A program made the translations under genes and the position numbers. From NCBI GenBank assembly GCA_020062665.1, contig JAGUVW010000061.1, forward strand, positions 46,881 to 110,880: 64,000 bases of DNA, in the 5' to 3' direction. Of the stretch, positions 8,980 through 64,000 are shown piece by piece. Under the pieces are notes generated by a model. That model made no database searches. It was not told where the DNA came from and saw only the letters and a list, made by a program, of their open reading frames with translations. The DNA is from Pseudomonadales bacterium (GTDB lineage Bacteria; Pseudomonadota; Gammaproteobacteria; Pseudomonadales; Ketobacteraceae). Each line of letters opens with the position of its first letter. Position 1 is the first letter of the stretch.

Positions 8980-9794
8980 GGTAAAACTCCATTTCAGGTT
9001 CGGTGTGAAAAAGCCAGCAGAAAAGTCAGCATGCATGCCTTTGGCAGACACAAACGATCGTGCTGCTTCTTTGCTGCCAGAGCGATCGCTGTGCGCCTGG
9101 GTTGCCGTAAAGCGCGAAATTACGCTTTTTCAGGCATGAAAATTCCCTCCCCAGATCAGTCATGGCCTGGATTTTTTGGTAATCAGGAAGTGCCCCCGGA
9201 GAGATCGAGCCTACAGCTTGGCTGTTGTGAACGATGATCCTATGACGCCACCATTACGCTTTCAGGATGCCTACTGTAGATTCCAAAATTTTTTTCCTCC
9301 ATGAAAAAGTAAAATCGAGTGCCCTGCACTAATTACAAAATAAATATGATTTAACGTTGAGTGATGCAGTGCGACTGTTAGGTGAGTTTGCTCAGTGCGG
9401 ATCATTATTCGGTGCTGAAACTGCAAAAAATCTGCAATGCAGTTTATCTAATGAAGATTCTCTGCAGAAAACCCGGCCTGGCGTTTGAGCTTCACGGGGC
9501 GTGATGGTGGCGATTGAAACACATTGCAGCGGATACTGAGTCAGACTTTGTAATGATTGACTTGGCGTTTGATTTGTTGTCGGCAGAGCGCGTGAATGCG
9601 CAGTCAAATGAATGATGTGGCGATAAATTGTACCGCGTGCCGATTTTTTTTCGGAGCGTGGCGCTTCTGCTGCTAATGAAGTGATGTTAACTGGTTTGGT
9701 TGATTTGTGTGCGTTTCTGCTTTGACGTTGTGCGTTTTCGGTCGGGAAATTCCAACGGTGTCACAACAGGTTTTCGCCGCGGCTGCAGGGATGC
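8980..9794. other. Non-coding, AT-richer region upstream of the PKS operon
   Basis: About 815 bases separate the PKS start from the SDR stop; both genes are on the minus strand, so this holds the PKS operon promoter. Base composition is visibly richer in A/T than the flanking genes, especially 9280-9400 and 9540-9680. It contains two imperfect direct repeats (9119-9138 and 9253-9269) and a short inverted repeat AGTGC-CCT-GCACT at 9318-9330. I could not place a convincing -35/-10 pair. A 71-codon frame at 9392-9607 (minus) has no family features or clear ribosome site, and I do not call it a gene. Confidence 0.6.
9119..9269. repeat. Imperfect direct repeat ATTACGCTTT(TT)CAGG(C)ATG upstream of the PKS
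   Basis: ATTACGCTTTTTCAGGCATG at 9119-9138 recurs as ATTACGCTTTCAGGATG at 9253-9269, in the same orientation and 134 bases apart. Both lie upstream of the PKS start, so they could be regulator sites, but chance or an old duplication is possible. Confidence 0.35.
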
Positions 9795-31201: not shown

Positions 31202-31634
31202 GCCGGGACTCTCAAAAAGACACGTGTGTTCCGGCACCCCAGTGCTTCCGATGGACTGCTCAGGAACATCACCTGTCGGTATCCTTGACTCATCGTCCTT
31301 GGACGATCGTGACACTCTAAAAGTAGCCAAGAAATTTCACAGTGCAGGGCAATGTTGCGCGACAAATCACAAAATTCGCTGAATTAGTGACTTAGGGGAA
31401 AATGTGAGCATTATTCGGTAGAAACCGGGTATTTTGCGTGACAAAAAGATGGCGATGCGGAGTGGCGATGACGTTACATTCTGCAGAACGTCAAATCAGC
31501 GGGAGTCCTGATGTAGATGAACGGCTGTGAGTTTTGAGGGCATCGACGCTGGCTATATTTGCGCATTTACGCGGGGTGAAAAACTCCCCGTGTAAATGGC
31601 TGTCTGGCCCGCGAACGATGCCCTGCAGAATGGA
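31202..31634. other. Intergenic region between fadL and the lipoprotein gene
   Basis: No supportable gene is present. A hairpin at 31565-31597 follows fadL. An inverted repeat ATCGTCC-TT-GGACGAT at 31292-31307 lies about 90 bp upstream of the lipoprotein start and may be an operator. No clear -35/-10 pair was found. Confidence 0.5.
31565..31597 (-). terminator. Terminator-like hairpin after fadL
   Basis: ATTTACGCGGGG and CCCCGTGTAAAT form a 12-bp stem with one G-T pair around TGAAAAACT, 38 bp past the fadL stop. The lower stem is A/T rich but no separate T-run follows. Confidence 0.6.
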
Positions 31635-47700: not shown

Positions 47701-50700
47701 GGATTACATGGTGCCGTCGGCGTTTGTGGCGATGGATTCGCTGCCGGTCACTGCCAATGGCAAACTTGACCGTCGCGCACTGCCGAAGCCGGAAACCGAC
47801 AACGAAGCCGCGCTGCAACGCATCCCGCCGCGCACCGAGAAAGAAAAAATTCTCGCCACCATCTGGTGTCAGGTGCTGAACCTGCAGGAAGTGGGTATCC
47901 GCGACAATTTCTTCGAATTGGGTGGTGATTCCATTCTCAGCATCCAGATCATCAGTCGCGCCAAGCTGGCAGGCCTGCATCTGACCACCAAGCAGATTTT
48001 CGAGAACCAGACCATCGAGGAACTGGCGGAAGTGGCCAGCGAGGCGGAAACGCCGGTGCTGGCAGAGCAGGGCATGGTGGTGGGCGACGTGTTGCTGTCG
48101 CCGATCCAGCAGTGGTTCTTCGAACACGACTTTGCCCATGAGCATCACTGGAACCAGTCGGTGTTGCTGGACATCCGGCCCGAGGCAAAACTGACGGAGC
48201 AGCAGATCGGCAAGGCGCTGACAGCAGTGGTGCAGCAGCACGACGCGCTGCGCCTGCGCTTTGTGCGCGACGGCGAACAGGTGCGGCAATTCCACCAGAG
48301 TGGCGTCAGCGGCGATGATCATTTTGTGCTTCACCACATCGAGCTGGAGCAGGATGACCCTGCCCGCATCGGTCAGCTGATTACCGAGCACTGCGCCCGC
48401 ATTCAGGCCAGTCTGGATCTGGCGCAGGGCCCTATTCTGGCGGCAGGCTTTTTCCGGCTGGCCGATGGTCAGCGTAAGCTGCTGCTGGTCATTCATCACC
48501 TGGTGGTGGACGGCGTTTCCTGGCGCATATTGCTCGACGATTTCACCCAGGCGTTGCAGAAAGTGCAGCAGCATGATGATCCGAAGCTGGGCATGAAAAC
48601 CACGTCTTACCAGCAGTGGATCAATGCCCTGAAAGATCATGTCAGCAGCGGCGCGCTCAACGAGGAAATGGAGCACTGGCGCAAGCTGGTGTGGGCAGAA
48701 AAGCCGGTGCTGCCGCTGGATGACCCCGACGGCAGTTTCACTGTTGCCGATACCGTGGTGCTGTCTCACCGGTTGGGCGAAGAACAGACGCAAGCGCTGT
48801 TGCGCGATGTCAATCGTGCCTATCGCACGGACATTACCGATGTGTTGATGACCGCGCTGGCCCGCACGTTCAGCGACTGGAGCGGCAACGTGGAAACCCT
48901 GCTGGAGCTGGAAGGCCATGGCCGGGAAATGTTCTCGGACAAGATCGATCTGAGTCGCACTGTCGGTTGGTTCACGTCGGTTTATCCGGTGCGCCTGCGC
49001 TATGAAAACGGTCAGTCCCTGCAGGACAACCTCAAGTCCATCAAGGAACAGTTGCGGCAGATCCCCAATCGCGGCTTTGGTTATGGTGCGCTGCGCTATC
49101 TGGGCACCGACGAGCAGCGCGATGAACTGGCGCAGGCACCCCAGGCTGATCTGGTGTTCAACTATCTGGGTCAGTTCGATTCCATCATCGAGAACAATCC
49201 CTGGTTCACCGTGGCTGCCGAAGAGCGCGGGCTGGAACACAGTCTCAACAGCGAAGATCCTCATCGCCTGAGCATCAACAGTCACATTGTGGACGGCCGT
49301 CTGCAGGTGGACTGGATTTACAGCGAAAAGGTTTTCAAGCCGCAGACGATCGAGCGACTGGCAACCCAGTATCTGCGCGCGCTGGAGCAGGTGATTCACC
49401 ACTGCACCCAGCCGGACGTGTTTGGCTACACGCCGTCGGATTTCCCGTTGACGCGGCTGGATCAGCAGCAGATCGATCGCCTGGTGGGCAAGCAGCGTGG
49501 CATTGTGTCCATCTATCCGCTGTCACCCATGCAGGAAGGCATGCTGTTCCACAGCCTGTTCGACAATGACGCGGGTGTCTATTTTGAACAGCTGAGCGTG
49601 GAAGTGATCGGCAATGTGGATCGCGATCTGCTGAAACAGGCGTGGATTCAGGTGGTGAACCGGCATCCGGCGCTGCGCAGTGCATTCGTTTGGCAGGATC
49701 TGGATCGTCCGCTGCAGATCGTCTACAACCGCATCGAAATGGAAGTGAACGAGTTCGACTGGCGCAACATCGATCCGGCCCAGGAACAGCATCGCCTGAA
49801 CGTGTGGCTGGAAAAGGATCGCCAGCGTGGCTTCGATTTCGACAAGCCGGGCCTGATGCGACTGGCGTGGGTGGATCTGCCGGGACACCGTTCGCGATTG
49901 ATCTGGAGTTTCCACCATATTGTGCTGGACGGCTGGTCGTTGCCGCTGGTGATGGGCGAAGTGTTCCAGACCTATGGCGCGCTGGTAAAAGGTGTGCAGC
50001 TGCAGTTGCCGGCTGCAGGTTCTTATGAGGATTTCATCGCGTACCTTGAGCGCTCCGACAAGGGCGATGCGCTGCAATTCTGGAAACTGTACCTGGCGGG
50101 CTTCGAAGCGGCAACACCACTGCCCAACAAGAAGCAGCGCAACCATCAGCAGGACAAGGTGTTTGCGGAACATCACCTGCGCCTGGATGACGCGCTCACC
50201 TCACGTCTGCAAACGTTTGCACGGGAACAGCATGTCACGCTGAATACCGTCATTCAGGCGGCCTGGGGTGTGCTGCTGGCTCGCTACAGCGGCGAGAAAG
50301 ATGTGGTGTTTGGCACCACGGTGTCCGGGCGCCCGGCCGAGCTGGCGAATGTCGAGCAGATCGTCGGCCTGTTCATCAACACGCTGCCGCTGCGTCTGCA
50401 GATCGACGACGACACCACCATCGCACCGCTGCTGCAGCGCATGCAGGAAGACCAGCTGGATCTGCGTCGCTACGAATTCACGCCGCTGGTGGATATCCAC
50501 CGTCATTCCGATGTGCCCGGCGATCAGGCGCTGTTCGACAGTATTCTGGTGTTTGAGAACTACCCGGTAGGCGAAGCGGTGCATAGCGCCGATGAACTGC
50601 TGGACATCGGCCACATCACCACCATCGAACACACCAACTTCCCGATCACGCTGATCGTGGAGCCATCGGATCGTCTGCTCATCAAACTGTCCTACGATGC

Positions 50701-53700
50701 CACTCTGTTTGAATCGTCTGCGATTCAGCGCACGTTGCTGCATCTGCAGCGTGTGATCCAGGGCGTGCTGTCGCAGCCGGACGTGCCGCTGTGGCGTCTG
50801 CCGATCCTGGGTGAGGAAGAGCGCAACCGCATCCTGCACGAGTGGAATCCGGAACCCGCCAACTATCCGCGCAATCTGTGTCTGCATCAGGTGTTCGAGC
50901 GTCAGGTGAAGGCGCATCCGGATCGTGTTGCACTGGTGTCCGGCCACACGGAAATCAGTTACGACGAACTGAACCGGCGTGCGAACCGTCTGGCCCGTTT
51001 GCTGCTGGAATCCGGTGTCAAGGATCAGGACTTCGTCACGGTAGCGCTCGATCGTTCCATCGACATGATCGTCAGCATCCTGGCGATTCTCAAGGCGGGC
51101 TGCGCCTACGTGCCGGTGGACCCGGAATATCCGGCGGAGCGCATCGGCTTCATGCTGGAGGACACCAAGGCGCCGGTGATGATTTCCGTGAGCCATCATA
51201 TCGAGCGTTTGAGCCCGATCATGGCTGAATCATCGCCGCAATCACGGCTGATTGTGCTGGATCGCGATGCTGAGCTGATTGCAGCAAAATCTGGCGAGAA
51301 CGTACGGCTTGCAGTGCGCGAAACGCCTCAGCGCCATGCCTATGTGGTGTATACCTCGGGCTCCACCGGCAAGCCGAAGGGTATCCTGGTCAATCAGCTG
51401 GGTGTGATCCGCCTGGTGCTGGATACCAATTATTTCCGCCTCGAAGATGACGACCGCGTGGCGCATTGTTCCAACGTGTCTTTCGATGCGTCGGTCTATG
51501 AGATGTGGGCACCTTTGCTGAACGGAACGACCATGGTGCTGTACAGCAAGGATATGCTGATCACGCCGGACGCCTTCTATGAGGAGTTGCTGCGCACCCG
51601 TACCAATGTGATCTTTATCACCACGGCATTGTTCAACGCCTTTGCTGCGGCGCGCCCTGAGATCTTCAGCGCGATGAAGTACGTGATGTTCGGTGGCGAA
51701 GCCTGTGATCCGAATCAGGTTCGTTATGTGCTGCGTGAATTCAAGCCGCGTCACCTGTTGCATGTGTATGGGCCGTCGGAAAACACGACTTTCTCCACGT
51801 GGTACGAAGTGGAGCACGTCAGCGACTGGGCGACCACCGTGCCCATCGGTCGCAGCATTTCCGGCTCCACAGCATTCATTCTGGATCGTCATCTGCAGCC
51901 GGTGTCGGTGGGCGTGACGGGCGAAATCTATGTCGGCGGCGATGGCCTGGCCATTGGCTATCTCAACGACCCGGAAAAAACGGCGGCCGCTTTCATTGCC
52001 AATCCGCTGGTATCCAAAGCGGAGGATCGTCTGTATCGCACCGGCGATCTGGCGCGCTACACCGAGGATGGTCAGATCGAGATTCTGGGCCGCGCCGATG
52101 ATCAGGTGAAGATCCGCGGTTTCCGCATTGAGCTGGGTGAAGTCGAAGCCAGCCTGACGCGGCTCGAAGCCGTTAACGAAGCGGTGGTGGTAGTGAAGCA
52201 GGATCAGCATCGCCAGAAGCGGCTGGTGGCTTATGTGCGCGTCAATGCCCGTGTGGACAGCAGTTTTATCCGGCGCGAAGCGGCCAAGGTGTTGCCGAAA
52301 CACATGTTGCCATCGGCATTTGTGGTGATGGAACAGTTCCCGCTGACACCGAACGGCAAGATCAACAAGCGAGCCTTGCCCGAACCCGAACTGGATAGCT
52401 CCAGCACCCAGCATTACGTTGCCCCGCGCAACGAGAAGGAAACCACGCTGGTGCACATCTGGGAGCAGGTGCTGAAGGCCGACACCGTGGGTGTGCACGA
52501 CAATTTCTTCGAACTGGGTGGCGATTCCATTCTCAGCATCCAGATCATCAGCCGCGCGAAAAAAGCCGGCCTGCATCTGACGGCGAAGCAGATTTTCGAA
52601 TTCCAGACCATCGCCGAACTGGCGGAAGCTGCGCAGGAACTGCAGGATATCATTCTGGCGGAGCAGGGCCAGGAAGAGGGCGTTGCACCGCTGACGCCCG
52701 TGCAACACTGGTTCTTCGATCAGAATATTGCAGACATCCATCATTTCAACCAGTCGTTGCTGCTGACCCTGGACAAGCGCGTGAGCGTCGAGCAGGTGAA
52801 GACAGCGTGGGAAGCCATCCTGCTGCAGCACGATGCGTTGCGTTTGCGTTACAACCGGCTGGAAAGCGGTGCCTGGCAGCAGAGCTTCCGCCCGTCGGAA
52901 CATGCTGAAACCCTGCTGGGCGAAGTGTTTGATGTAGTGAACCTGAGCGGTTTGCCGGTAGCATTGCGTGGCGAGCAGATCACCCAGCTGGCTGGGCAGG
53001 TGCAAACCGAGCTCAACATGAGCAAAGGCCCGCTGGTGCGGGTGATCTATTTCGACATGGGGCGTGATCATCCGGCGCGTTTGCTGATGGTGATTCATCA
53101 CCTGGTGGTGGACGTGTTCTCGTGGCGCATTCTGCTGGAAGATCTGCAGATCGGTCTGCAGCAGGCGGCGAAAGACGAGCGCATTGAACTCGGCAATAAG
53201 ACCACCTCCTATCGCCAGTGGGGCGAAGCGCTGATCCAGCTGGCGAACAGCGAGCAGCTGGATGCAGATTTCGATTATTGGCGTCAGCGCGCAGTGATTC
53301 GTCCGCCGCGGTTGCCGCAGGATAATCACGGCAAGAATCAGGTGGCCAGTGTCAAGGTGATCGAACGCAAGCTCGACAGCGCACAGACCCGGCGTCTGCT
53401 CACCGAAACCAGCCGCTGCTACCGCACCGAAATCAACGACCTGTTGCTGACGGCACTGGCCCGTTCCATCAGCGGCTGGACCGGTTCCGATTCCGTGCTG
53501 TTCGATCTGGAAGGTCATGGACGTGAACATGTGGCGGACATGATCGATGTATCGCGCACGGTGGGATGGTTCACCTCGATCTACCCGGTGGTGCTGGGCA
53601 TCGACACGCAGGTGGATCTGGGTGCGCAAATCCGCAGCGTGAAGGAACAGCTGCGTGCGATTCCCCGCAAGGGCATGAGTTATGGCGTGTTGCGTTATCT

Positions 53701-56700
53701 GTCCGAACAGCCGGAACGTCGCAATACACTGTCTGCCCTGGCGCACAGCCAGATCAGCTTCAACTATCTTGGCCAGCTGGATCAGGTGGTGGCGGGTGAT
53801 GGCCTGCTGAGCCAGGCGACGGAATCGCCGGGCGAAGAAATTGCGCCAGCGGGCATGCGCGCCTATTTGCTGGAAATCAGCGGCCGCGTGCAGAACGGCG
53901 AGCTGGTGCTGGCCGTCCGCTACAGTCACGCGATTCACGATCAGGCCACGATAGAACGTCTGATCAACCAGCTGGTGCAGGAAATCGGTACCATCATCGA
54001 GCATTGCAGCGATCTGTCTCACGCAGCTTATACGCCCTCGGATTTCCCGTTGGCGCGGCTGACGCAGGAACAGTTGGACACGCTGCTGCCGAAGAAAGGT
54101 GTCGAAGCGGTTTATCCCTGCTCACCCGTGCAGGAAGGCATGCTGTTCCACAGCCTGTACGAACCGGGGTCCTGGGTTTACTTCGATCAGGTGATCGTGC
54201 CGATCACCGGCGCGGTCAATGAAGCTGCGCTGTTCGATGCCTGGCGCGCTGTGATTGCGCGGCACCAGATTCTGCGCACCGGTTTCCTGTGGGATGGCGT
54301 GCAGCAGCCGCTCCAGGTGGTGATGGAGCAGATCGATCTGGATGTTCAGCGCTATGACTGGTCGCGGTTGCCGGCAGATCAGGCGCAGGAAAAATTCCAG
54401 CGTTATCTGGTGGACGATCGCAATCTGGGCTTTGGTTTCAAACGCCCTGGTGTGTTGCGTCTGTCCTGGGTGGCGATGCCGGGGAACGAGCATCGGCTGG
54501 TGTGGAGTTTCCATCATATTCTGCTGGATGGCTGGTCGTTGCCGATTGTATTTGGTGAACTGTTCTCGGCCTATGATGCCTTTAACGCCGGCAGGGAGTG
54601 GACGCCGCCGCCCGCGCCCCGTTACCAGGATTTCATCGGCTGGCACGTGCGGCAGGATCGCAACAAGGCGCAGACATTCTGGAAAAAATATCTGGAAGGT
54701 TTCTCTGCCGCCACACCGATTCCGGTGAAGAATTCCGCTGCTCTGGTAGCGCAGAAAGGGCGCGCAGGTGATTCCGCCAGCCGCTACCGGGAAGCACAGA
54801 CGGCAGTGGCCGGTCAGTTGCTGGAAGGGCTGCAGTCGCTCGCCAAGCAGCACCGCATGACACTGAATCACATCATGCAGGGTGTGTGGGCGGCGTTGCT
54901 GGAACGTTATTCCGGCGAATCCGATGTGCTGTTCGGCACTACCGTATCCGGACGCCCGGCGGATCTGGCCGGCATCGAAAACATGGTGGGCCTGTTCATC
55001 AACACCCTGCCCATGCGGCTGCGGGTGGACAAACACGCGCCTTTCATCGACTGGCTGCAAGGACAGCAGGATGCTCAGGGCGATCTGAAATTCTACGAAT
55101 ACAGTTCCCTGGTGGATGTGCAGAAGGCCAGCGCCTTGCCGGCCAAGCAGGCGATGTTCGAATCCATTCTGGTTTTCGAGAACTATCCCATCGACGAAAC
55201 CCTGGAGCAGACCCAGGCAACGCTGCGCATCGGTGAAGTGGACGCTTTCCAGCAAACCAATTTCCCGCTCACGCTGATCATCATTCCGGGCCGCGAACTG
55301 TTGCTGCGTTTTTCCTACGACAGTCATCTGTTCGAACCCGTCGTCATCGAGCGCATGCTGGGTCACATCCAGCAGATGCTGGTTGCCATCCACGGTAATC
55401 CAGGCATTCTGATTCATCAGCTGCCGTTGCTGACGGAACGCGAACAAGATCAGCTGGTGGATAACTGGAATCGCACCGAGCGCCTGTTCGCGTCCGATTC
55501 AACGCTGATGGAATTGTTCGAGCAGAAAGTGCAGCAGTATCCACAGCAGATTGCCTGCGAGTTCGGCGATCAGCGGGTTTCCTACGAACGCTTGAACTGC
55601 AAGGCCAATCAGCTTGCACGTCTGCTGATTGCCAACGGCGTGAAGCCCACCAATCCGGTGGCGATCTGTTTCGACCGCTCGCTGGCGATGGTGGAAGGCA
55701 TGCTGGCCATCCTCAAGGCTGGTGGTGTGTATGTGCCCATCGATCCCTCCTATCCCCAGGAGCGGGTGCAGCACATGATGGACGACACCCGCGCGCCGGT
55801 GTTGCTGACATCGCGGGAATACAGCGAACGTTTTGCCTATCTGGCAGAAACCGGTGTCACCCGCGTGCTGGAGTGGGAAACCCTCAGCAGTGGATTGCAG
55901 TCGCAGCCTGATAGCAATCCTGGTATTCGCCTGCCCAAGGGCAGTCGCTCGCTGGCGTATATCATTTATACCTCTGGTTCCACCGGTAAACCCAAGGGTG
56001 TGTGTGTGCCGCAGGTGGCGGTGAGCCGTTTGGTACTGAACACGGATTACGTGCAGCTGCAGCCGGGTCACCGCATGGGCCATGCTTCCAACGTGTCGTT
56101 CGACGCGGCGACGTTCGAATTCTGGGGCGCGTTCCTCAACGGTGGCACACTGGTCGGCATCGACAAGGAGACCACGCTCAATCCCGACGCTTTCGCGCAC
56201 ATCATCAAGCAGCGCAAGATTGACGTGCTATTCGTTACCACCGCGCTGTTCAATGTGCTGTCGAAGCAGACGCCGGATGTGTTCTCGCAATTGCAGTATC
56301 TGCTGTTCGGTGGCGAAGCCTGTGATCCCAACCAGGTGCGCGCGGTGCTGAATCAGGCGGGCGGCCCGGCGCATCTTCTGCACGTGTACGGCCCCACCGA
56401 AAACACCACGTTCTCGACCTGGTATGAAGTGAAGGACGTGCTGCCCGGTTCCACCACGGTGCCCATCGGCTATCCGATCGCCAACAGCACACTGTACGTG
56501 CTGGATGAACAGTTGCGTCCGGTGCCCATTGGCGTGCCCGGTGAAATTTATGTCGGCGGCATCGGCGTGGCGGATGGTTATCTGAACCGGCCGGAACTGA
56601 CCCGCGAAGTGTTTCTGACCGATCCATTCAACGCCAGCCGCCGCATGTACAAGACCGGCGATCTTGGGCGTCTTCTGGAATCAGGCGCGCTGGAAATTCT

Positions 56701-57337
56701 GGGCCGGATGGATGACCAGGTGAAAATCCGCGGCTTCCGGATCGAACTGGGAGAAGTGGAAACTGCCGTCAACCAGTTGCCGGGCATTCGCGAAACGTCG
56801 GTGGTGGTGCGCAGCGATGCCAGCGGCAACAAGCAGCTGGTGGCGTACTGCGAAAAAGTGCCCGAGCAGGAGATGCTGCCAGTGGCTGAACTGAAAGCCA
56901 AACTCAAGCAGTTCCTGCCGGATTACATGGTGCCCAGCGCCATCGTATTGCTGGATCACCTGCCCATCACGCCCAACGGCAAGGTGGACAAGCGGGCATT
57001 GCCAGCACCCGAAGCCGAAGACTATGCGTCGAATGCGTACGTTGCGCCGCGCAACCCCACCGAGGATGCACTGGCCGCCATCTGGTGCGAGGTGCTCGGT
57101 GTAGCGCAGGTGGGCGCCTACGATGATTTCTTCGAGCTGGGCGGCCATTCCCTGCTGATCACCAAGGTGTCCACCCGCATCAAGCAACAGCTGGGCGTGG
57201 AATTGCCGCTGCGTACATTATTTGAAGTCCCCACGGTTGCCGCGCTGGCGGAAATCATCTGCGCCGTCAGTTTCGTGCCGGCTGCCGATGCGGTTGCTGA
57301 TGAAGGGGAAGAGGAATTCGAGGAAGGTTCTCTATGA
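44786..57337 (+). CDS. Lipopeptide NRPS 2: C-A-PCP-E-C-A-PCP-E-C-A-PCP
   Basis: This 4183-residue enzyme adds three residues. The N-terminal helix (LLNRLASLSPEQREALLKQL) can dock NRPS 1. C3 is LCL type (HHVIADG, 182). A3 pocket reads DALWLGGTFK, Val-like. PCP3 (GGDSILS, 1047) is followed by E1 (HHLVVDG at 1237, EGHGRE, TVGWFTSVYPV). C4 is DCL type (YPLSPMQEGMLFHSL; HHIVLDG, 1710). A4 pocket reads DAYFMGVTFK, Ile/Val-like. PCP4 (2579) is followed by E2, whose motif is HHLVVDV (2771-2777) with Val for the usual Gly. C5 is DCL type (YPCSPVQEGMLFHSL; HHILLDG, 3243). A5 pocket reads DAFFLGVTFK, an Ile code. PCP5 (GGHSLL, 4119) has no E after it. The acidic tail (DEGEEEFEEGSL) suits docking to the TubC domain of NRPS 3. 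A4 and A5 share long phrases, suggesting module duplication. Confidence 0.93.
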   Translation: MTDKKLLNRLASLSPEQREALLKQLQKKKTQGSEPRKDGIQVYPRDHQHLPMSYAQQRLWFIDQLQSGSASYNISAALRLKGSLDVEALRMSFDEIVRRHEVLRTTFITEDGQGRQVINQHQRWELATISLEPLSREEQEEVIRARFKGDAHTSFDLINGPLLRTRLIRLSSTEHVMIVTMHHVIADGWSMGVFIREMALLYDAFTQDKQSPLTDLKIQYADYSLWQREWLSGERLERQLSYWKTRLDGVPVLELPTDFPRPPVHSYQGANLHFRLDVETSRALNELAKKQGVTLFMVLFAALQTLLHRYSGQDDVCVGTPIAGRVRPELEHLIGCFVNTLAIRSDLSGNPTFTSLLKQIQQNLTGAYDHQDIPFERLVDELGVAREMSHTPLFQVMFVLQNATSTSALSLPGLNIELLPEESETSKFDLTINMREEKGCLQGDFEYRTDLYSANSIQHQISHFQNLLKAVVANPAGGIDDFDYLSPQERQQILVEWNNTATDYERDSDVLDVFQQTVRLFPERVAVELGNQSLSYTQLDQRANHVALWLIEKGVRPGARVGLCAERSIETIAAILGILKAGASYVPLDPAYPQDRLHYMLDDTGAGIVIAHPHLTANLPVTPDNLIDLTRLQTESAPCPDPAVRVGPLAPAYVMYTSGSTGKPKGIEVVHRNIVRLVRNTNFMQLDESTSFLQYAPISFDAATLEIWGPLLNGGKIVVAPPGQLTPEELGAVIAKGNVNAAWLTAALFHVFAEYHAEQLKPIRQLLAGGDVLSPKLVRKVLQQFPGMTLINGYGPTENTTFTCCYPMYSPEDVRHTVPIGRPIANTKVYVLDRSLRPVPVGVPGELYTSGDGVANGYLNREELTADVFIQNPFCAGDDTRLYKTGDLVRYYPDGNIEYLGRIDQQVKIRGFRIELSEVEEAISRINTIREVAVIAREDVPRVKRLVAYFVPVEGAHPTAIELRAELKQSLPDYMVPSAFVAMDSLPVTANGKLDRRALPKPETDNEAALQRIPPRTEKEKILATIWCQVLNLQEVGIRDNFFELGGDSILSIQIISRAKLAGLHLTTKQIFENQTIEELAEVASEAETPVLAEQGMVVGDVLLSPIQQWFFEHDFAHEHHWNQSVLLDIRPEAKLTEQQIGKALTAVVQQHDALRLRFVRDGEQVRQFHQSGVSGDDHFVLHHIELEQDDPARIGQLITEHCARIQASLDLAQGPILAAGFFRLADGQRKLLLVIHHLVVDGVSWRILLDDFTQALQKVQQHDDPKLGMKTTSYQQWINALKDHVSSGALNEEMEHWRKLVWAEKPVLPLDDPDGSFTVADTVVLSHRLGEEQTQALLRDVNRAYRTDITDVLMTALARTFSDWSGNVETLLELEGHGREMFSDKIDLSRTVGWFTSVYPVRLRYENGQSLQDNLKSIKEQLRQIPNRGFGYGALRYLGTDEQRDELAQAPQADLVFNYLGQFDSIIENNPWFTVAAEERGLEHSLNSEDPHRLSINSHIVDGRLQVDWIYSEKVFKPQTIERLATQYLRALEQVIHHCTQPDVFGYTPSDFPLTRLDQQQIDRLVGKQRGIVSIYPLSPMQEGMLFHSLFDNDAGVYFEQLSVEVIGNVDRDLLKQAWIQVVNRHPALRSAFVWQDLDRPLQIVYNRIEMEVNEFDWRNIDPAQEQHRLNVWLEKDRQRGFDFDKPGLMRLAWVDLPGHRSRLIWSFHHIVLDGWSLPLVMGEVFQTYGALVKGVQLQLPAAGSYEDFIAYLERSDKGDALQFWKLYLAGFEAATPLPNKKQRNHQQDKVFAEHHLRLDDALTSRLQTFAREQHVTLNTVIQAAWGVLLARYSGEKDVVFGTTVSGRPAELANVEQIVGLFINTLPLRLQIDDDTTIAPLLQRMQEDQLDLRRYEFTPLVDIHRHSDVPGDQALFDSILVFENYPVGEAVHSADELLDIGHITTIEHTNFPITLIVEPSDRLLIKLSYDATLFESSAIQRTLLHLQRVIQGVLSQPDVPLWRLPILGEEERNRILHEWNPEPANYPRNLCLHQVFERQVKAHPDRVALVSGHTEISYDELNRRANRLARLLLESGVKDQDFVTVALDRSIDMIVSILAILKAGCAYVPVDPEYPAERIGFMLEDTKAPVMISVSHHIERLSPIMAESSPQSRLIVLDRDAELIAAKSGENVRLAVRETPQRHAYVVYTSGSTGKPKGILVNQLGVIRLVLDTNYFRLEDDDRVAHCSNVSFDASVYEMWAPLLNGTTMVLYSKDMLITPDAFYEELLRTRTNVIFITTALFNAFAAARPEIFSAMKYVMFGGEACDPNQVRYVLREFKPRHLLHVYGPSENTTFSTWYEVEHVSDWATTVPIGRSISGSTAFILDRHLQPVSVGVTGEIYVGGDGLAIGYLNDPEKTAAAFIANPLVSKAEDRLYRTGDLARYTEDGQIEILGRADDQVKIRGFRIELGEVEASLTRLEAVNEAVVVVKQDQHRQKRLVAYVRVNARVDSSFIRREAAKVLPKHMLPSAFVVMEQFPLTPNGKINKRALPEPELDSSSTQHYVAPRNEKETTLVHIWEQVLKADTVGVHDNFFELGGDSILSIQIISRAKKAGLHLTAKQIFEFQTIAELAEAAQELQDIILAEQGQEEGVAPLTPVQHWFFDQNIADIHHFNQSLLLTLDKRVSVEQVKTAWEAILLQHDALRLRYNRLESGAWQQSFRPSEHAETLLGEVFDVVNLSGLPVALRGEQITQLAGQVQTELNMSKGPLVRVIYFDMGRDHPARLLMVIHHLVVDVFSWRILLEDLQIGLQQAAKDERIELGNKTTSYRQWGEALIQLANSEQLDADFDYWRQRAVIRPPRLPQDNHGKNQVASVKVIERKLDSAQTRRLLTETSRCYRTEINDLLLTALARSISGWTGSDSVLFDLEGHGREHVADMIDVSRTVGWFTSIYPVVLGIDTQVDLGAQIRSVKEQLRAIPRKGMSYGVLRYLSEQPERRNTLSALAHSQISFNYLGQLDQVVAGDGLLSQATESPGEEIAPAGMRAYLLEISGRVQNGELVLAVRYSHAIHDQATIERLINQLVQEIGTIIEHCSDLSHAAYTPSDFPLARLTQEQLDTLLPKKGVEAVYPCSPVQEGMLFHSLYEPGSWVYFDQVIVPITGAVNEAALFDAWRAVIARHQILRTGFLWDGVQQPLQVVMEQIDLDVQRYDWSRLPADQAQEKFQRYLVDDRNLGFGFKRPGVLRLSWVAMPGNEHRLVWSFHHILLDGWSLPIVFGELFSAYDAFNAGREWTPPPAPRYQDFIGWHVRQDRNKAQTFWKKYLEGFSAATPIPVKNSAALVAQKGRAGDSASRYREAQTAVAGQLLEGLQSLAKQHRMTLNHIMQGVWAALLERYSGESDVLFGTTVSGRPADLAGIENMVGLFINTLPMRLRVDKHAPFIDWLQGQQDAQGDLKFYEYSSLVDVQKASALPAKQAMFESILVFENYPIDETLEQTQATLRIGEVDAFQQTNFPLTLIIIPGRELLLRFSYDSHLFEPVVIERMLGHIQQMLVAIHGNPGILIHQLPLLTEREQDQLVDNWNRTERLFASDSTLMELFEQKVQQYPQQIACEFGDQRVSYERLNCKANQLARLLIANGVKPTNPVAICFDRSLAMVEGMLAILKAGGVYVPIDPSYPQERVQHMMDDTRAPVLLTSREYSERFAYLAETGVTRVLEWETLSSGLQSQPDSNPGIRLPKGSRSLAYIIYTSGSTGKPKGVCVPQVAVSRLVLNTDYVQLQPGHRMGHASNVSFDAATFEFWGAFLNGGTLVGIDKETTLNPDAFAHIIKQRKIDVLFVTTALFNVLSKQTPDVFSQLQYLLFGGEACDPNQVRAVLNQAGGPAHLLHVYGPTENTTFSTWYEVKDVLPGSTTVPIGYPIANSTLYVLDEQLRPVPIGVPGEIYVGGIGVADGYLNRPELTREVFLTDPFNASRRMYKTGDLGRLLESGALEILGRMDDQVKIRGFRIELGEVETAVNQLPGIRETSVVVRSDASGNKQLVAYCEKVPEQEMLPVAELKAKLKQFLPDYMVPSAIVLLDHLPITPNGKVDKRALPAPEAEDYASNAYVAPRNPTEDALAAIWCEVLGVAQVGAYDDFFELGGHSLLITKVSTRIKQQLGVELPLRTLFEVPTVAALAEIICAVSFVPAADAVADEGEEEFEEGSL

Positions 57338-60300
57338 CCGTGTTTGAGTTGATGTCCCGGCTCGGTGCTGCCGGAGTCAAACTGTGGGTGGAAGAAGGAC
57401 AGCTGAAGTTCAAGGCACCCAAAGGCGCGCTGACGGCGGAATTGAAAGACGCGCTGGTGGCGAAAAAGTCCGAGGTGATCGAATTTCTCAGCGGCACCCG
57501 GGTGGGCACCAGTGGCGACGCGGATCGCATACCGCTGGCAGATCGCAGCCAGCCGCTGCATCTTTCCCACGCGCAAAACCGGCTGTGGTTCATCGAACAG
57601 CTGACACCCGGTAACAGCACCTTTCACATTCCCGCGCCCATGTTGCTGAATGGCATTCTGGATCAGGGTGCCATGGAGCGCGCGTTTCTGCAGTTGCTGC
57701 AGCGTCATGAGGCGTTGCGCACCGTGATTCGCGAAGTGGAGGGTGAGCCGCGCCAGATCGTCCAGTCGATCGAACGTTTCGTGATTCCGGTGGAGGATCT
57801 GACGTCGCTGCCGACAGGCGAGCGTCAGCAAAGCCTGCAGGAAAAGGTTGAGCGGGAAACGCGGGCGCCGTTCGATCTGGCCAATGGGCCGATGGTGCGC
57901 GCGAAGCTGTTCAAGCTTGACGACAACCAGCATGCGCTGGTGGTGGTGATTCACCACATCGTCACCGATGGCTGGTCCATGGGTATCTTCGTGCGCGAAA
58001 TGGCGGCACTGTACGCTGCCGAGCGCATGGGCGTGAATGCAACGCTGCCGCCACTGCCGGTGCAGTATGGTGATTTTTCCGAGTGGCAGCGTAATTGGTT
58101 GCAGGGTGATGTGCTGGATCGCCAGATCGCCTACTGGCAGCAGCAGCTGGCCAATGCGCCTGTATCTCTGGATCTGCCGTTCGATCGCCCGCGTCCGGCC
58201 GTGGTCACCCGGAATGGCACCACGCTGCCTGTCAGTTTCGACAGCACACTCACCGACGACATCAAAAAGCTGGCGCGCAAACTGGATACCACGGCCTACG
58301 TCATTCTGCTGGCGGCCTACAAGATTCTGCTGGGTCGCTGGTCGCGGCAGCGCGATATCTGTGTCGGCATGCCGGTGGCGGGGCGCACCCGTCCGGAAGT
58401 GGAAGGGCTGATCGGCTTTTTCGTCAATACACTCGCTATCAGAACGCAGCAGACCGGCAAGCCGACCTTCGAACAATTCGTGCGGCAGGTGCGGGAAAAA
58501 GTGCTGGGCGCGCAAATGCACCAGGACATTCCGTTCGAAGTGCTGGTGGAAGAACTCAACGTGCCGCGCAACCTGAGTTTTGCGCCGGTCTACCAGGTGT
58601 CACTGTCATTTACTGGAGCAGAAGGTAGTGCCGACAAGGTTCGTCTGGGCGGACTGGAAATCGCACCGCTGGAACTGGAACTGAGCGGCGCTCGCGCCGA
58701 AATGTCGTTGATGCTGGCGGATCACGGCCAGACCATTCACGGCATGATCGAATACAACACGGATCTGTTCGATCGCGCCACCATCGAAATCTTTGTCCAG
58801 CATCTGCAACGTTTGCTGCAGGCGTTCACCCGGCATCCGGAATCCTGCATCGACACTGTTGCACTGCTGAATGACAGCGAACTGAAAGAAGCGCTCAATC
58901 TGTCCGAGCATTGCGAAGCCGTACTGCCGCTGGCGCCGATGCAGCGCGACTTTTTCATCGACAGCCTGAAATCCGCCAACACGTTGCGCAATACCATCGG
59001 CGAAGCATTCGAGCTGCCATTTGTGGTGGACGTGGAACGTTGGCATCACGCCATCCAGAAGGTGGCGGACGCCAATCCGTTGCAGCGGGTGCGACTGGTC
59101 GAATCCACCAAACCCTGGCTCGATCCGTTCTATCAGGTGGTGGAACACCAGCAGTCGGTGTGGTTCGAATGCCTGGACTGGAGCGCCGAAACGTTGACGC
59201 CGGATGCGTTGCAGACCCGGCTAGATCAGCTGATCCTGCGGCCGTGGAATGTGCTGCATTCACCGCTGATCCGACACTATCTGGTGAAGCAGGCATCGGG
59301 CCGCAGTCTGTATTTGATGACCGCTCATCACGCGATCATGGATGGTGGCAGCCGGCGCTTCCATCGCGAAGCGGTGTTGCAGGCGTACCTGACTGGCGCG
59401 GTGCCTGTTGTGACACCGGCACGCATTCAGGACTGGATTCTGCAGCGCACCCGCAAGACCGACAATCAGGCGGTGCTCGATTTCTGGCGTCAGGCGCTGG
59501 CCGAGGCCGAACCGCTGGCGACCCGCGTGGCCGATCCCGGCGACGCGCAGGTGCAGACCTGGACGCTGTCTGCCGCCGACTATCAGGCGCTGGAACAGTT
59601 CTGCGGTCGCCATGGTGTGAGCGCTGCTGGTTATTTGCGTGCACTGTATGCGCTGGCGCTGGATCATTGCAGTCATCACAACGGCCCTGTTGTGTTGATC
59701 GACGCCGTGGCTGCGCGCCAGGATGTTACGTTTGAGTCCAACGGCTGTTTCTTCCAGTTCGTGCCCGATGTGCTGCAAAAAGTCGAGCCACAGCAGACCA
59801 TCTGGGATCTGGTGCAAGCCAATCGCGCCTGGCGCAAAAGTATCGGTGATGCCATTTATCTGTCCATGATGGCGCGTCAGCAATTCCTCAATCCTAACGG
59901 CATTGAGTTCCAGTTCAATGCGCGGGTCGGTGCAATCCAGGAATCGGTTCATATCGATGGGCGCGATATCGACGTGTATCACGCCCAGCCGGATAACGCC
60001 GGCACCGTAAAGCTGATGGTGAATCCGCACCAGGGCGGCGCCATTCTGCGTTACAGTTTCCGCAAGCAGGAGTTTGGTGGATTCGATCTGCTGCAACGGA
60101 TTGCCCATGTCCACAACCAGATCCTGGCGGGCGTCGATACGCTGCAACAGCTCGACTGGTTGCTGCCGGAAGAAAAAGCACAACAGCTGGCATGGCAAGG
60201 TAAGCAGGACACAGGTTACGGCAAGGAAACCTTGCTGGATCTGATGGCCGCGCAAGTGGATCGCCGTCCCGATCAGGTGGCAGTGATCTGCGGCACCCGC

Positions 60301-63300
60301 CAGCAGACCTATCGTGAGCTGGACAGCCTGAGCAATCGCATTGCGCACTGGCTGCAATCACGGGGCGTGCAGCGGGGACAGCGGGTGGCGCTGTGCGTCG
60401 GGCGCAGCCTGGAATTGCCCGCGCTTTATCTGGGTGTGATCAAGTCCGGTGCCGCTTACGTGCCGATGGATGCCGGCTATCCCGCCGATCGCATCGCCTT
60501 CATCGCCGAAGACAGTCAGGCGCCGGTGCTGATCACCGAGCAATGTGTGCTGCAGCGTCTGCGTGATGCCAATGTGCAGTTGCCGGATTCCGTCGAGTGT
60601 CTGCTGCTGGATGATCTGGACAGCATGCTCGCCGGACACTCCGATCAGCCGCTGACAGCCCAGCCAACGCCAGACGATCTGTTGTATTACGTCTATACCT
60701 CTGGTTCCACCGGGCGGCCCAAAGGTGCCGGTGTCTATCATCGTGGCGAGCGCAATCTGCTGCAGTGGTATGCCGACTTGCTGCAGCTTGCCGGGCAGGA
60801 CAGGGTATTGCTGATCAGCGCACTGGGTTTCGACCTGACGCAGAAAAACCTGTTCATTCCGTTCTGCACCGGTGCGACGTTGGTGATTCCGGATTTCGAG
60901 GATTACGATCCTGAGCGCCTGGCCGATCTGATCGCGCGCCAACAGGTGTCCGTGATCAACTGCGCGCCGTCGGCGTTCTATCCCATCGCGGAACTGGATC
61001 AACACGGCGGTTATCCGTTTGCGTCCCTGCGTCATGTGGTGCTGGGCGGTGAACCGATTCGCCTGAATACCCTCAAGCCCTGGTTCGATCATCCAGCCGT
61101 GCACTGTGTGCTGACCAACAGCTACGGCCCCACGGAATGCAGCGATGTCGTTGCGAGTTACTCTCTGCAGAGTATCGACGATCCCGCGCTATCCATGCCC
61201 GTCGGCCGGCCGCTGGCCAACACCCAGCTGTATATAGTGGATCAGTCAGGCCATCTGTTGCCGACCGGCGCCGTGGGCGAATTGTGCATCGCAGGCATCG
61301 GCGTCGGCGCGGGTTATTGGAATCGCGACGATCTGAATGCGCAGGCGTTTGCCAGCAATCCCTATGGCGAAGGCCGCTGGTATCGCACCGGGGATCTGGT
61401 GCGATACAACCCGCAGGGCGAGATCGTCTACGTGGGCCGCAAGGATTTCCAGGTGAAATTGCGCGGCTTGCGGATCGAGCCGGGTGAAGTGGATTCACTG
61501 CTCAAACAGATGGATCACGTGCGCGATGCACTGACGCTGGTGCGCGACGAACGCCTGATTTCCTACGTGCTGTCCCATCACACCTTCGATGTGGCGGCTG
61601 CCCGCGAAGCGTTGCGAGGCAAGTTGCCAGACTTCATGGTGCCTGCTGCGCTGGTGGTGCTGGACGCCTGGCCGCTGACACCCAACGGCAAGATCGATCG
61701 CAAGGCGCTGCCGCAACCGGATCAGGGCGTGTTGGGCCCCTACGTTGCACCGCGCAACGACAGCGAGCAGCGCATCGCCGACATCTGGTGTCAGGTGCTG
61801 AAGCTGCCCAAGGTCAGCGTGCACGCGAATTTCTTCGAAGTGGGTGGCCATTCCCTGCTGGCGACGCAGGTGGTATCGCGCATTCGCCAGGCGTTCGGCG
61901 TTGAATTGTCGGTGCGCACACTGTTCGAATCGCCCACCATCGAAAAACTCACCCGCGCCATCGGCGGGGCAGCGGCAGCCGGCCTGATTGATACGGCACC
62001 GCCGCTGGTGGCGCTGCATCCGCCCAATCGCGATACCTTGTCGTTCGCGCAATACCGCCTGTGGTTTGTCGATCAGCTCAATCAGGGCAGCAGCGAATAC
62101 AACCTGCCGTCGGCCTTGCGCATTCGTGGCGCGCTGGACGTGACGGTGTTGGATCGAGTGTTGGGCGAAATCGTGCGTCGTCATGAATCGCTGCGCACCA
62201 ATTTCGCGGAAAAGGATGGCGTGCCACAGCTGATCGTGCGCCCGCCGCAGGAATGGCATTCGCCGCTGGTGGATCTGTCTGCAGCCCAGGGTAGTGAACA
62301 GCAACGGTTGATTACCCAGTGGGTGGATCAGGATGCCAACGTCACCTTCGATCTGGCCAGCGATTCGCTGTTTACCACGCGCATCCTCAAGCTGGCGACC
62401 GACGATCACATCATTCTGCTGAACATGCACCATATCATTTCCGATGGCTGGTCCATCGGCGTGCTGGTGCAGGAAATCCAGGCGCTCTACTTCGCTTTCG
62501 CCGCGGGTCAGTCTTCGCCGTTGCCGCCGCTGCCGATCCAGTATTCGGATTTTGCCGTGTGGCAGCGCCAGTGGCTGCAGGGTGAAACGCTGGACAAGCT
62601 GCGCGAATACTGGAAATCCGCGCTGCGAGGTGCACCGGATGTGCTGCGTCTGCCCACCGACAAACCGCGCCCGAAAATCCAGACCTTCAACGGCGCCCAT
62701 TCACCGGTTCAGCTGGGCCGCGCGCTCACCGAAAAAGTGAAGCATTATTGTGACCAGCACGACCTGACCCCGTTCATGGTGCTGATGGGCGCGTACCAGC
62801 TGTTGCTGAGCCGCTACACCCAACAGCAGGACATCTGCGTGGGCATCCCCATCGCGGGCCGCAACCGGACCGAAATCGAAAACCTCATCGGCTTTTTCAT
62901 CAATGGTCTGGTGATTCGCACCCGGCTTGATGGCAATCCGTCGGTGCAGGATTATTTCACCCAGGTGAAACAAGTCGCCCTCGGTGCCTATGCCCATCAG
63001 GACATGCCCGCGGATGTTTTGCTCGACACCCTGAAACTGGAACGCAGCGCCGATACCTCGCCGGGCGCGCAGGTGGGCTTTGCGCTGCAGAACGTGGCGC
63101 AAACGGATTTGTCTGCCGTGCTGGGCAATCTCAGCATCGAACCCGTACCACGGGAACATAAAACCGCGAAATACGAACTGTCGCTGATCCTGCAGGAAAA
63201 CAACGGCGAGATCGGTGGTGTGGCGGAGTACAACACCGACCTGTTCTTCGCCAGCACTATCGAGCGCATGATGCGACAGTACTGCCACGTGCTGGAGCAG

Positions 63301-64000
63301 ATGCTGGATCAGCCAGAGCAACTGCTGGATGCGGTGCAGGTGGTGTCGCTGGACGAGCTTTACGGGTTGCTGCATCTGGATGTGGCGTCCTGCGAGTTGC
63401 AGCGCCTGTCACCCATGCAGCGCGACATGTATCTGGATACCTTGCTGGAACCGGCCACGCTCAAGAACAGTCTGGGCTACCACTTCATCACCAGCGGTGA
63501 TTTCGATCTGAACCTCTGGCAGCAGGCCTCGCAACTCCTGGTGGACACACAGCCGTTGTTGCGCGCATCGCTGCTGGCGGTGGATCTGCCCTATGTGGAT
63601 GTGGCGTATCTGAATATCGATCGGCAGCGCACCGTGCGCGTGCATTTCGAGGATCGCTCTGCCACGCCGATGAGCGATCAGCAAGCAGCGGATTTCGCCC
63701 AGAGCCTGATCTGGCAGCCGTACGACATTCATGGTGAGCTGCATCAATCCTTTGTGTTCAAACTGGATCGTGGCCGTCATCTGGTGGTGTTCCGCGCCAA
63801 TCACATCCTGCTGGATGGTGCCGGCATGGCCGTGCATCTGCACAATGTCATCGCCGCCGCGGAAAGCCTGCGCGCGCAACAGCACTATTTGTCGGCACCG
63901 GTGATCTACCCGGATTATGTGCAGGAAAACCTGCGTCGCACCGATACCCATGAAGTCATCGCCCACTGGCGTAACACCGGTCGCTCCGTCGAGGCGCTGG
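57334..64000 (+). CDS. Lipopeptide NRPS 3, partial: TubC docking-C-C*-A-PCP-C-C*...
   Basis: The ATG at 57334 overlaps the NRPS 2 stop by 4 bp (ATGA) with GAGGAAGG upstream. The frame is open to the right edge (2222 residues visible). Residues 1-52 look like a TubC N-terminal docking domain (MTVFELMSRLGAAGVKLWVE). C6 is LCL type (HHIVTDG, 208). A second condensation-fold domain C6* follows directly (APMQRDFFIDSL at 530, HHAIMDGG at 665). A6 (YTSGSTGRPKG near 1121, core GFDLTQKNLF) has pocket DLKNVGSDVK, which I cannot assign. PCP6 has VGGHSLLA (1503). C7 has HHIISDG (1700), and again a second domain C7* (LSPMQRDMYLDTL at 2022, NHILLDG at 2156) runs to the edge. Tandem C-C* in successive modules is unusual. 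C* might dock a tailoring enzyme, as interface domains do, or form another bond. Confidence 0.92.
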   Translation, partial: MTVFELMSRLGAAGVKLWVEEGQLKFKAPKGALTAELKDALVAKKSEVIEFLSGTRVGTSGDADRIPLADRSQPLHLSHAQNRLWFIEQLTPGNSTFHIPAPMLLNGILDQGAMERAFLQLLQRHEALRTVIREVEGEPRQIVQSIERFVIPVEDLTSLPTGERQQSLQEKVERETRAPFDLANGPMVRAKLFKLDDNQHALVVVIHHIVTDGWSMGIFVREMAALYAAERMGVNATLPPLPVQYGDFSEWQRNWLQGDVLDRQIAYWQQQLANAPVSLDLPFDRPRPAVVTRNGTTLPVSFDSTLTDDIKKLARKLDTTAYVILLAAYKILLGRWSRQRDICVGMPVAGRTRPEVEGLIGFFVNTLAIRTQQTGKPTFEQFVRQVREKVLGAQMHQDIPFEVLVEELNVPRNLSFAPVYQVSLSFTGAEGSADKVRLGGLEIAPLELELSGARAEMSLMLADHGQTIHGMIEYNTDLFDRATIEIFVQHLQRLLQAFTRHPESCIDTVALLNDSELKEALNLSEHCEAVLPLAPMQRDFFIDSLKSANTLRNTIGEAFELPFVVDVERWHHAIQKVADANPLQRVRLVESTKPWLDPFYQVVEHQQSVWFECLDWSAETLTPDALQTRLDQLILRPWNVLHSPLIRHYLVKQASGRSLYLMTAHHAIMDGGSRRFHREAVLQAYLTGAVPVVTPARIQDWILQRTRKTDNQAVLDFWRQALAEAEPLATRVADPGDAQVQTWTLSAADYQALEQFCGRHGVSAAGYLRALYALALDHCSHHNGPVVLIDAVAARQDVTFESNGCFFQFVPDVLQKVEPQQTIWDLVQANRAWRKSIGDAIYLSMMARQQFLNPNGIEFQFNARVGAIQESVHIDGRDIDVYHAQPDNAGTVKLMVNPHQGGAILRYSFRKQEFGGFDLLQRIAHVHNQILAGVDTLQQLDWLLPEEKAQQLAWQGKQDTGYGKETLLDLMAAQVDRRPDQVAVICGTRQQTYRELDSLSNRIAHWLQSRGVQRGQRVALCVGRSLELPALYLGVIKSGAAYVPMDAGYPADRIAFIAEDSQAPVLITEQCVLQRLRDANVQLPDSVECLLLDDLDSMLAGHSDQPLTAQPTPDDLLYYVYTSGSTGRPKGAGVYHRGERNLLQWYADLLQLAGQDRVLLISALGFDLTQKNLFIPFCTGATLVIPDFEDYDPERLADLIARQQVSVINCAPSAFYPIAELDQHGGYPFASLRHVVLGGEPIRLNTLKPWFDHPAVHCVLTNSYGPTECSDVVASYSLQSIDDPALSMPVGRPLANTQLYIVDQSGHLLPTGAVGELCIAGIGVGAGYWNRDDLNAQAFASNPYGEGRWYRTGDLVRYNPQGEIVYVGRKDFQVKLRGLRIEPGEVDSLLKQMDHVRDALTLVRDERLISYVLSHHTFDVAAAREALRGKLPDFMVPAALVVLDAWPLTPNGKIDRKALPQPDQGVLGPYVAPRNDSEQRIADIWCQVLKLPKVSVHANFFEVGGHSLLATQVVSRIRQAFGVELSVRTLFESPTIEKLTRAIGGAAAAGLIDTAPPLVALHPPNRDTLSFAQYRLWFVDQLNQGSSEYNLPSALRIRGALDVTVLDRVLGEIVRRHESLRTNFAEKDGVPQLIVRPPQEWHSPLVDLSAAQGSEQQRLITQWVDQDANVTFDLASDSLFTTRILKLATDDHIILLNMHHIISDGWSIGVLVQEIQALYFAFAAGQSSPLPPLPIQYSDFAVWQRQWLQGETLDKLREYWKSALRGAPDVLRLPTDKPRPKIQTFNGAHSPVQLGRALTEKVKHYCDQHDLTPFMVLMGAYQLLLSRYTQQQDICVGIPIAGRNRTEIENLIGFFINGLVIRTRLDGNPSVQDYFTQVKQVALGAYAHQDMPADVLLDTLKLERSADTSPGAQVGFALQNVAQTDLSAVLGNLSIEPVPREHKTAKYELSLILQENNGEIGGVAEYNTDLFFASTIERMMRQYCHVLEQMLDQPEQLLDAVQVVSLDELYGLLHLDVASCELQRLSPMQRDMYLDTLLEPATLKNSLGYHFITSGDFDLNLWQQASQLLVDTQPLLRASLLAVDLPYVDVAYLNIDRQRTVRVHFEDRSATPMSDQQAADFAQSLIWQPYDIHGELHQSFVFKLDRGRHLVVFRANHILLDGAGMAVHLHNVIAAAESLRAQQHYLSAPVIYPDYVQENLRRTDTHEVIAHWRNTGRSVEAL
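58910..60200 (+). other. C6*: second condensation-like domain of the first NRPS 3 module
   Basis: This segment begins at LPLAPMQRDFFIDSL, directly after the end of C6, and ends before the A6 N-terminus (LLDLMAAQVDRRPDQ). It has the full length of a C domain and keeps HHAIMDGG (first His codon at 59326). It has the floor-loop-like phrase SNGCFFQFVPDV where ordinary C domains have FVNTLPLR-type sequence. It contains no PCP between it and C6, so it cannot be a module of its own. Confidence 0.8.
63390..64000 (+). other. C7*: second condensation-like domain of the next NRPS 3 module, cut by the edge
   Basis: It begins at LQRLSPMQRDMYLDTL directly after C7 and shares with C6* the opening pattern PMQRD...D.L...TL.N..G..F. 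The motif at the HHxxxDG position is NHILLDG (Asn codon 63799-63801), so the first His is replaced; the second, catalytic His is kept. The C-terminal half is outside the window. Confidence 0.75.

Follow-up and report, generated by a model that had tools for sequence, protein, structure and literature searches.

Second condensation-fold domains beside LCL domains in a Ketobacteraceae lipopeptide synthetase and their tentative role in side-chain acylation

The window analysed here, a stretch of 64,000 nucleotides, corresponds to bases 46881-110880 of contig C22 in a 5.78 Mb genome whose nearest named relatives are Ketobacter and the gamma proteobacterium HdN1 (order Pseudomonadales). The host is described as a marine-type gammaproteobacterium. 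A lipopeptide line begins with NRPS1, which contains a fatty acyl-AMP ligase, an ACP and C-A-T-C-A-T, and continues with NRPS2 (C-A-T-E-C-A-T-E-C-A-T), the upstream partner of NRPS3, which carries the C-terminal tail DEGEEEFEEGSL. NRPS3 is a single open reading frame that runs beyond the right edge of the window and has the domain order docking-C6-C6*-A-T-C7-C7*-A-T (Table 1). Elsewhere in the window, a single-module polyketide synthase (KS-AT-DH-KR-ACP) lies beside genes for a short-chain dehydrogenase, an RND pump, a membrane fusion protein and an outer membrane efflux protein, and a 766-aa open reading frame is found that has no Pfam match and whose place in the genome G004 is taken by a similar-sized frame.

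Table 1. Positions of the assembly-line features and of neighbouring genes, in window numbering unless a contig is named first
Feature	Position	Strand	Evidence or remark
Polyketide synthase, single module	2872-9051	-	KS-AT-DH-KR-ACP
766-aa open reading frame	29030-31330	-	no Pfam match
NRPS1, begins lipopeptide line	35879..44512	+	domain calls, Pfam
NRPS2, partner upstream of NRPS3	44786..57334	+	domain calls
NRPS3, single open reading frame	57334-66537 (contig C22)	+	domain calls
TubC_N docking domain, NRPS3 N terminus	57346..57492	+	Pfam PF18563, 68 bits
C6, ordinary LCL condensation domain, HHIVTDGWS	57529..58899	+	Pfam Condensation 374 bits; LCL clade in trees
C6*, second condensation-fold domain, HHAIMDGGS	58912..60201	+	Pfam 76 bits; C* clade; AlphaFold pLDDT 95.5
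A6, adenylation domain	60232..61713	+	code DLKNVGSDV (homoserine), PMC12283262
T6, peptidyl carrier domain	61744..61962	+	domain call
C7, ordinary LCL condensation domain, HHIISDGWS	62005..63372	+	domain call; LCL clade
C7*, second condensation-fold domain, NHILLDGAG	63391-64701, window cuts at 64000	+	Pfam 81 bits; C* clade
GGDEF membrane gene between NRPS3 and NRPS4	66561-68375 (contig C22)		sequence reading
C8*	C22 116945-118138		degenerate: LKGLLDDA in place of HHxxxDG, 24 bits to Pfam

In both modules of NRPS3, an ordinary LCL condensation domain is followed directly by a second condensation-fold domain, here termed C*, as had been proposed from the letters of the window in the original prediction. 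The gap between the two domain calls is 12 residues in each module (LKEALNLSEHCEA and LYGLLHLDVASCE). Where a hidden PCP had been considered as a counter-explanation, the domain calls match no carrier domain between C and C*. The opening pattern that C6* and C7* were said to share is real in its PMQRD part, while the TLxNxxGxxF part fits these two domains and is loose across the family. Pairwise identities amount to 25% for C6/C6*, 21% for C7/C7*, 28% for C6*/C7* and 39% for C6/C7. The low values between C and C* indicate that C* was not copied from the neighbouring C domain, and local duplication is ruled out as its origin by the identities together with the trees; the same evidence speaks against the suggested possibility that C* would group inside the LCL or DCL clades with duplicated C6 or C7 sequence. 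The structure of C6* was predicted by AlphaFold as a complete two-lobed condensation fold (pLDDT 95.5), and prediction of the C6-C6* pair, proposed at the outset as a check, returned the full condensation fold for the pair (pLDDT 92.7). VIA matched C6* to LgrA with a Z value of 34 and to further C domains with 33; neither Foldseek nor VIA separated the subtypes or ranked starter domains of the acyl-CoA type above the remaining condensation domains. The LCL-C*-A-T order is found again in dozens of loci, which, taken with the complete predicted fold, argues that the C-C* pairs are not a chance arrangement.

Inspection of the genes to the right of the window, along contigs C22, C2 and C25 as well as in relatives, confirmed that the cluster continues there, with neither a TauD nor a P450 gene; in the source genome it was followed in outline, with a gap on either side of C2, towards C22 and towards C25. 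The genome holds at least five C-C* pairs, counting the two in NRPS3, C8-C8* in NRPS4, C11-C11* in NRPS5 and one more on contig C2. Pfam Condensation scores are 76-117 bits for C6*, C7* and C11*, and C8* is degenerate. The end of the line lies on contig C25, which carries A(end)-T-TE, EctB, a stand-alone C-like protein, an MFS transporter, a type II thioesterase and an RND pump, a gene order that agrees with the syntenic G004 cluster. EctB, a Dab aminotransferase, adjoins the end of NRPS5 in the source genome and in G004 and is encoded nearby in HdN1. A gene devoted to an additional acyl donor was not found in the cluster. Between NRPS3 and NRPS4 lies a membrane gene with a GGDEF domain, diguanylate cyclase-like as read from its sequence, which is also present at this junction in G004; HdN1 has restriction-modification-like genes there. 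The stand-alone protein that adjoins the EctB gene (L157 on contig C25; also L158-L160) is about 400 aa long and contains HHxxxDG. A C-like protein of this kind occurs near EctB in 6 of 21 genomes with C* and in none of 27 without it, and its presence in only 6 of the 21 rules it out as an obligatory partner of C*.

The phylogeny of C* against the other C subtypes, which had been recommended as a check, was constructed by maximum likelihood. C* forms one clade (SH-aLRT 100) on a stem of 1.8 changes per site, which lies outside the LCL, DCL and E domains, the EntF starter domain and three interface domains defined by their context. The separate subtype expected for C* is thus borne out, in quick trees that carry SH-aLRT support without bootstrap and, besides the LCL, DCL, E and interface domains, include a single EntF starter. 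The deeper placement of the clade, near DCL and interface domains, is weakly supported, and the separation from starter domains refers to EntF as the sole named reference, itself on a long branch. Among 391 genomes of the order, hits of a C* model that cover most of the domain score at least 198 bits, and ordinary C domains score 131 bits at most. Within the family, the sole genome examined that lacks C* is 54% complete; outside it, C* occurs in a small number of further families of the order and in three more genomes among 369 sampled from the class. The plasmid collection yielded only ordinary C domains, with 22-28% identity. Two occurrences can be mentioned separately: a 2.6 Mb gammaproteobacterial genome (G506) has NRPS open frames of more than 12,000 residues with C* (L147, L148), and a C*-first NRPS is found in a Desulfobacterales metagenome bin, outside the Gammaproteobacteria (L090).

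C* domains are mostly 20-46% identical to C6*, and their catalytic residues are nearly invariant: of 98 C* domains, 96 have the second (catalytic) His of HHxxxDG and all have the Asp, whereas 18 have another residue, mostly Asn, in place of the first His. Near-invariance of the motif at such low identity suggests that C* is catalytic, and C* is well supported as a distinct catalytic-type subfamily of the condensation superfamily. The two exceptions at the catalytic His are C8* of the source genome (LKGLLDDA) and C6* of HdN1 (HESVMDSA). The counterparts of C8* in G004 and HdN1 keep the motif, and C6* of the source genome keeps the motif lost in HdN1. Since the LCL domains preceding C* retain their own HHxxxDG and motif loss in C* is scattered, the pattern points to tailoring and not to elongation; such patchy loss in single modules would fit an optional tailoring step.

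The adenylation codes give an indication of the residues on which C* may work. Modules 6, 7 and 8 carry DLKNVGSDV(K) and module 11 carries DLKNFGSDV(K). The first of these codes, as DLKNVGSDVK, is listed for homoserine or homoserine lactone (Hse/Hsl; PMC12283262), and DLKNFGSDVK was called homoserine by antiSMASH 4.1 in the laxaphycin cluster (PMC7524897). Across relatives, with duplicates removed, 87 C* modules and 49 LCL-only modules were compared. A residue with a side-chain hydroxyl or amine (Hse, Dab, Ser, Thr or Lys) is predicted in 84 of the C* modules vs 18 of the LCL-only modules (Fisher test 1e-14, a value inflated by shared ancestry and obtained with nucleophile classes that were set after the codes had been seen). 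The three exceptions are starter modules (G005-type) in which C* opens the line. Codes of the Hse type account for 71 of the 87 C* modules, and Asp or His codes for none; the Dab and Lys assignments follow published codes, and the EctB gene beside the cluster supports that of Dab. Homoserine modules lacking C* also exist, 13 among the LCL-only set of 49, and C* is thus no requirement for Hse; the converse rule, that C* always accompanies a homoserine A domain, is ruled out by the Dab, Ser, Thr, Lys and aliphatic cases. As relatedness inflates the Fisher test, substrate changes were counted on the C* tree, which needs at least eight: two each to Dab, Ser and Thr, one to Lys and one to an aliphatic residue. 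Seven of these eight lead towards a nucleophile (binomial about 7e-6 vs a background of 5/36, or 0.005 vs 18/49 when Hse is kept), counts that may be biased if Ser, Thr and Hse pockets interconvert easily. The link between C* and nucleophile-bearing residues, read from predicted codes, therefore appears strong but is not independent proof.

C* is otherwise internal, as in this window, but two clusters (G005:C17 and G035:C39) each contain one NRPS that opens with C*, in the order C*-A-T-E-DCL-A-T. The A codes of these starter modules are aliphatic (DAFFLGIVF and DAFFLGGVF). In each cluster, the two other NRPSs start with a TubC_N-type docking domain, identified by Pfam in G005 and read from the sequence in G035. 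The C*-first NRPSs lack TubC docking and end in acidic tails (EFEEFTL and DFEEVTL) resembling the NRPS2 tail that precedes the TubC-bearing NRPS3. On the basis of these docking tails, and not of chemistry, the C*-first NRPS is likely the first protein and probably opens the assembly line in both clusters. A C* in this position would imply an acyl donor that does not come from an upstream T domain. In both clusters (L168-L176), the gene directly 5' of those for the C* NRPSs encodes a membrane protein; the G005 copy weakly resembles acyltransferase family 3, with 30.4 bits, slightly below the cut-off of 31.

Taken together, we propose that C* is a cis acyltransferase whose donor does not come from the upstream carrier and which acts on the alpha-amine at initiation and on side-chain oxygen or nitrogen internally, a reading for which we judge the chances to be evenly balanced. 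Among the ideas of the original prediction, that of a catalytic role, for instance forming an ester on Thr, fits best, although the residue is predicted to be homoserine. In an internal LCL-C*-A-T module, the A domain would load a residue whose side chain offers a nucleophile, predicted to be homoserine in this window, and the LCL domain would form the normal peptide bond on its alpha-amine. Since the alpha-amine is thereby taken, C* would add a second acyl group to the side-chain oxygen or nitrogen, using a donor other than an upstream NRPS carrier, most simply an acyl-CoA or acyl-ACP. In a starter C*-A-T module, C* would acylate the alpha-amine, the free nucleophile there. The predicted product is a lipopeptide bearing several acyl chains. 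The analysis shows the domain order, the distinct clade, the retained motif, the link to nucleophile-bearing residues, the starter position and the lack of TauD and P450 partners, and from these the reaction, its timing and its donor are inferred. The proposal is drawn from genes, the C*-bearing clusters having no known product; the literature searched gave no product for Ketobacter or HdN1 lipopeptides and no paper pairing Ketobacter with nonribosomal synthesis. The wider claim, that C* represents a new catalytic condensation subtype that acylates side chains in cis to yield multi-acyl lipopeptides and also serves as a starter acyltransferase, is put forward tentatively, as something short of probable.

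A structural or protective role without catalysis appears unlikely. Here, C* would dock a trans enzyme that is neither TauD nor P450, or would shield Hse- and Dab-thioesters from lactone or lactam cyclisation. Such a role would suit the precedent of the glycopeptide X domains, which are C folds without catalysis, the tendency of Hse and Dab thioesters to close into five-membered rings, and the C* domains that have lost the motif yet stay in the line. It is harder to reconcile with a catalytic His kept in 96 of 98 domains, with Ser, Thr and aliphatic starter residues that form no such rings, and with the Hse modules that lack C*. Moreover, no constant partner of C* was found, the C-like protein beside EctB being missing in most C* genomes outside the family.

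Similarly improbable is that C* performs other chemistry on the T-bound residue, such as dehydration, ring formation or the joining of the growing chain as an ester branch. The retained HHxxxDG and the hydroxyl groups of Hse, Ser and Thr are compatible with it, dehydrating (modified-amino-acid) C domains are known to act on Ser and Thr, and one of them, AmbE (7r9x), is among the fold matches. Dab and Lys, however, cannot be dehydrated, aliphatic starter residues have nothing to eliminate, and where C* opens the line there is no growing chain yet that could form a branch.

The proposal that C* is an interface domain, which would bring a TauD-type beta-hydroxylase to the residue on T as happens for siderophores with beta-hydroxyaspartate or beta-hydroxyhistidine, is largely refuted and very improbable, even though C* occupies the same place directly before the A domain. 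Reference interface domains were sought as divergent C-fold domains before Asp A domains, and G219, G158 and G086 each have one directly after a protein with C-TauD at its end, in line with interface domains of the published type. These three lack HHxxxDG, which C* keeps, and form their own 100% clade apart from C*; C* also fits the LCL profile (239) better than the interface profile (104), the latter built from three rows. The Hse and Dab codes of C* modules likewise depart from the Asp or His expected. A TauD partner was rejected on a search of the source genome, 17 relatives and the three interface-bearing genomes: the two TauD genes of the source genome lie away from its NRPS genes, none lies near the G004 cluster, and no hit was obtained in the closed, complete HdN1, with its six C* domains, or in the C*-bearing G007, G008, G027 and G030. 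The recruitment of a P450, suggested by analogy with X domains, fares no better, as no P450 lies in the cluster as followed on contigs C22, C2 and C25 or in its counterparts in relatives. Across 12 genomes a P450 partner was rejected: these genes are plentiful in the genomes searched, but where the cluster sits on one contig, in G004 and HdN1, it contains none, the nearest being more than 40 kb off in G004 and far off in HdN1. Finally, that C* is a decaying duplicate of no present role is hardly credible, since all family genomes examined that are sufficiently complete retain it, as do several other families, and its catalytic residues are nearly invariant, despite the degenerate C8* and a C6* that evolves faster than its neighbours (same-genus identity 46% vs 67% for LCL and 74% for A).

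Among known systems, interface (I) domains reportedly occur in siderophore NRPSs and resemble C* as a condensation fold before an A domain without a carrier of its own preceding it; those found by context here lack HHxxxDG, precede an Asp A domain and follow C-TauD, whereas C* has HHxxxDG, Hse or Dab codes and no TauD. Starter C domains (lipoinitiation, RzmA, PDB 7c1l with C8-CoA) have the same fold, and share with C* an N-terminal position in some cases and a proposed acyl donor from outside the NRPS line. C*, in contrast, lies for the most part inside the line, behind a complete LCL domain, and forms a clade separate from the EntF starter. The glycopeptide X domain (PDB 4tx2), no more than a general fold match, is also a condensation-fold domain beyond the elongation set, but it recruits P450s, while the C* clusters of G004 and HdN1 have none and C* keeps the motif. 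The CmodAA domain of AmbE (PDB 7r9x) likewise works on a hydroxyl residue, yet it is the sole C domain of its module, whereas C* is the second and also serves Dab and Lys. In tandem heterocyclisation, two condensation-superfamily domains are adjacent without a carrier as well, but both are of the Cy type, and here LCL is paired with an unrelated subtype. Such Cy-Cy tandems are covered by a 'Cy_tandem' rule (PMC12971057). The literature within reach, which covered neither the main publication on interface domains nor the bulk of the subscription journals, contained no tandem of LCL and a second subtype.

If true, the proposal would make C* the first integrated side-chain acyltransferase class of the condensation fold beside a normal C domain. 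Genome-mining tools would probably take C* for a C domain of the ordinary, interface or damaged kind and mispredict the product. If C* acylates side chains, it would give peptide engineering a portable part for acylation. The proposal also makes a concrete prediction for Ketobacter and for alkane degraders of the HdN1 type, namely that their lipopeptides would carry several acyl chains.
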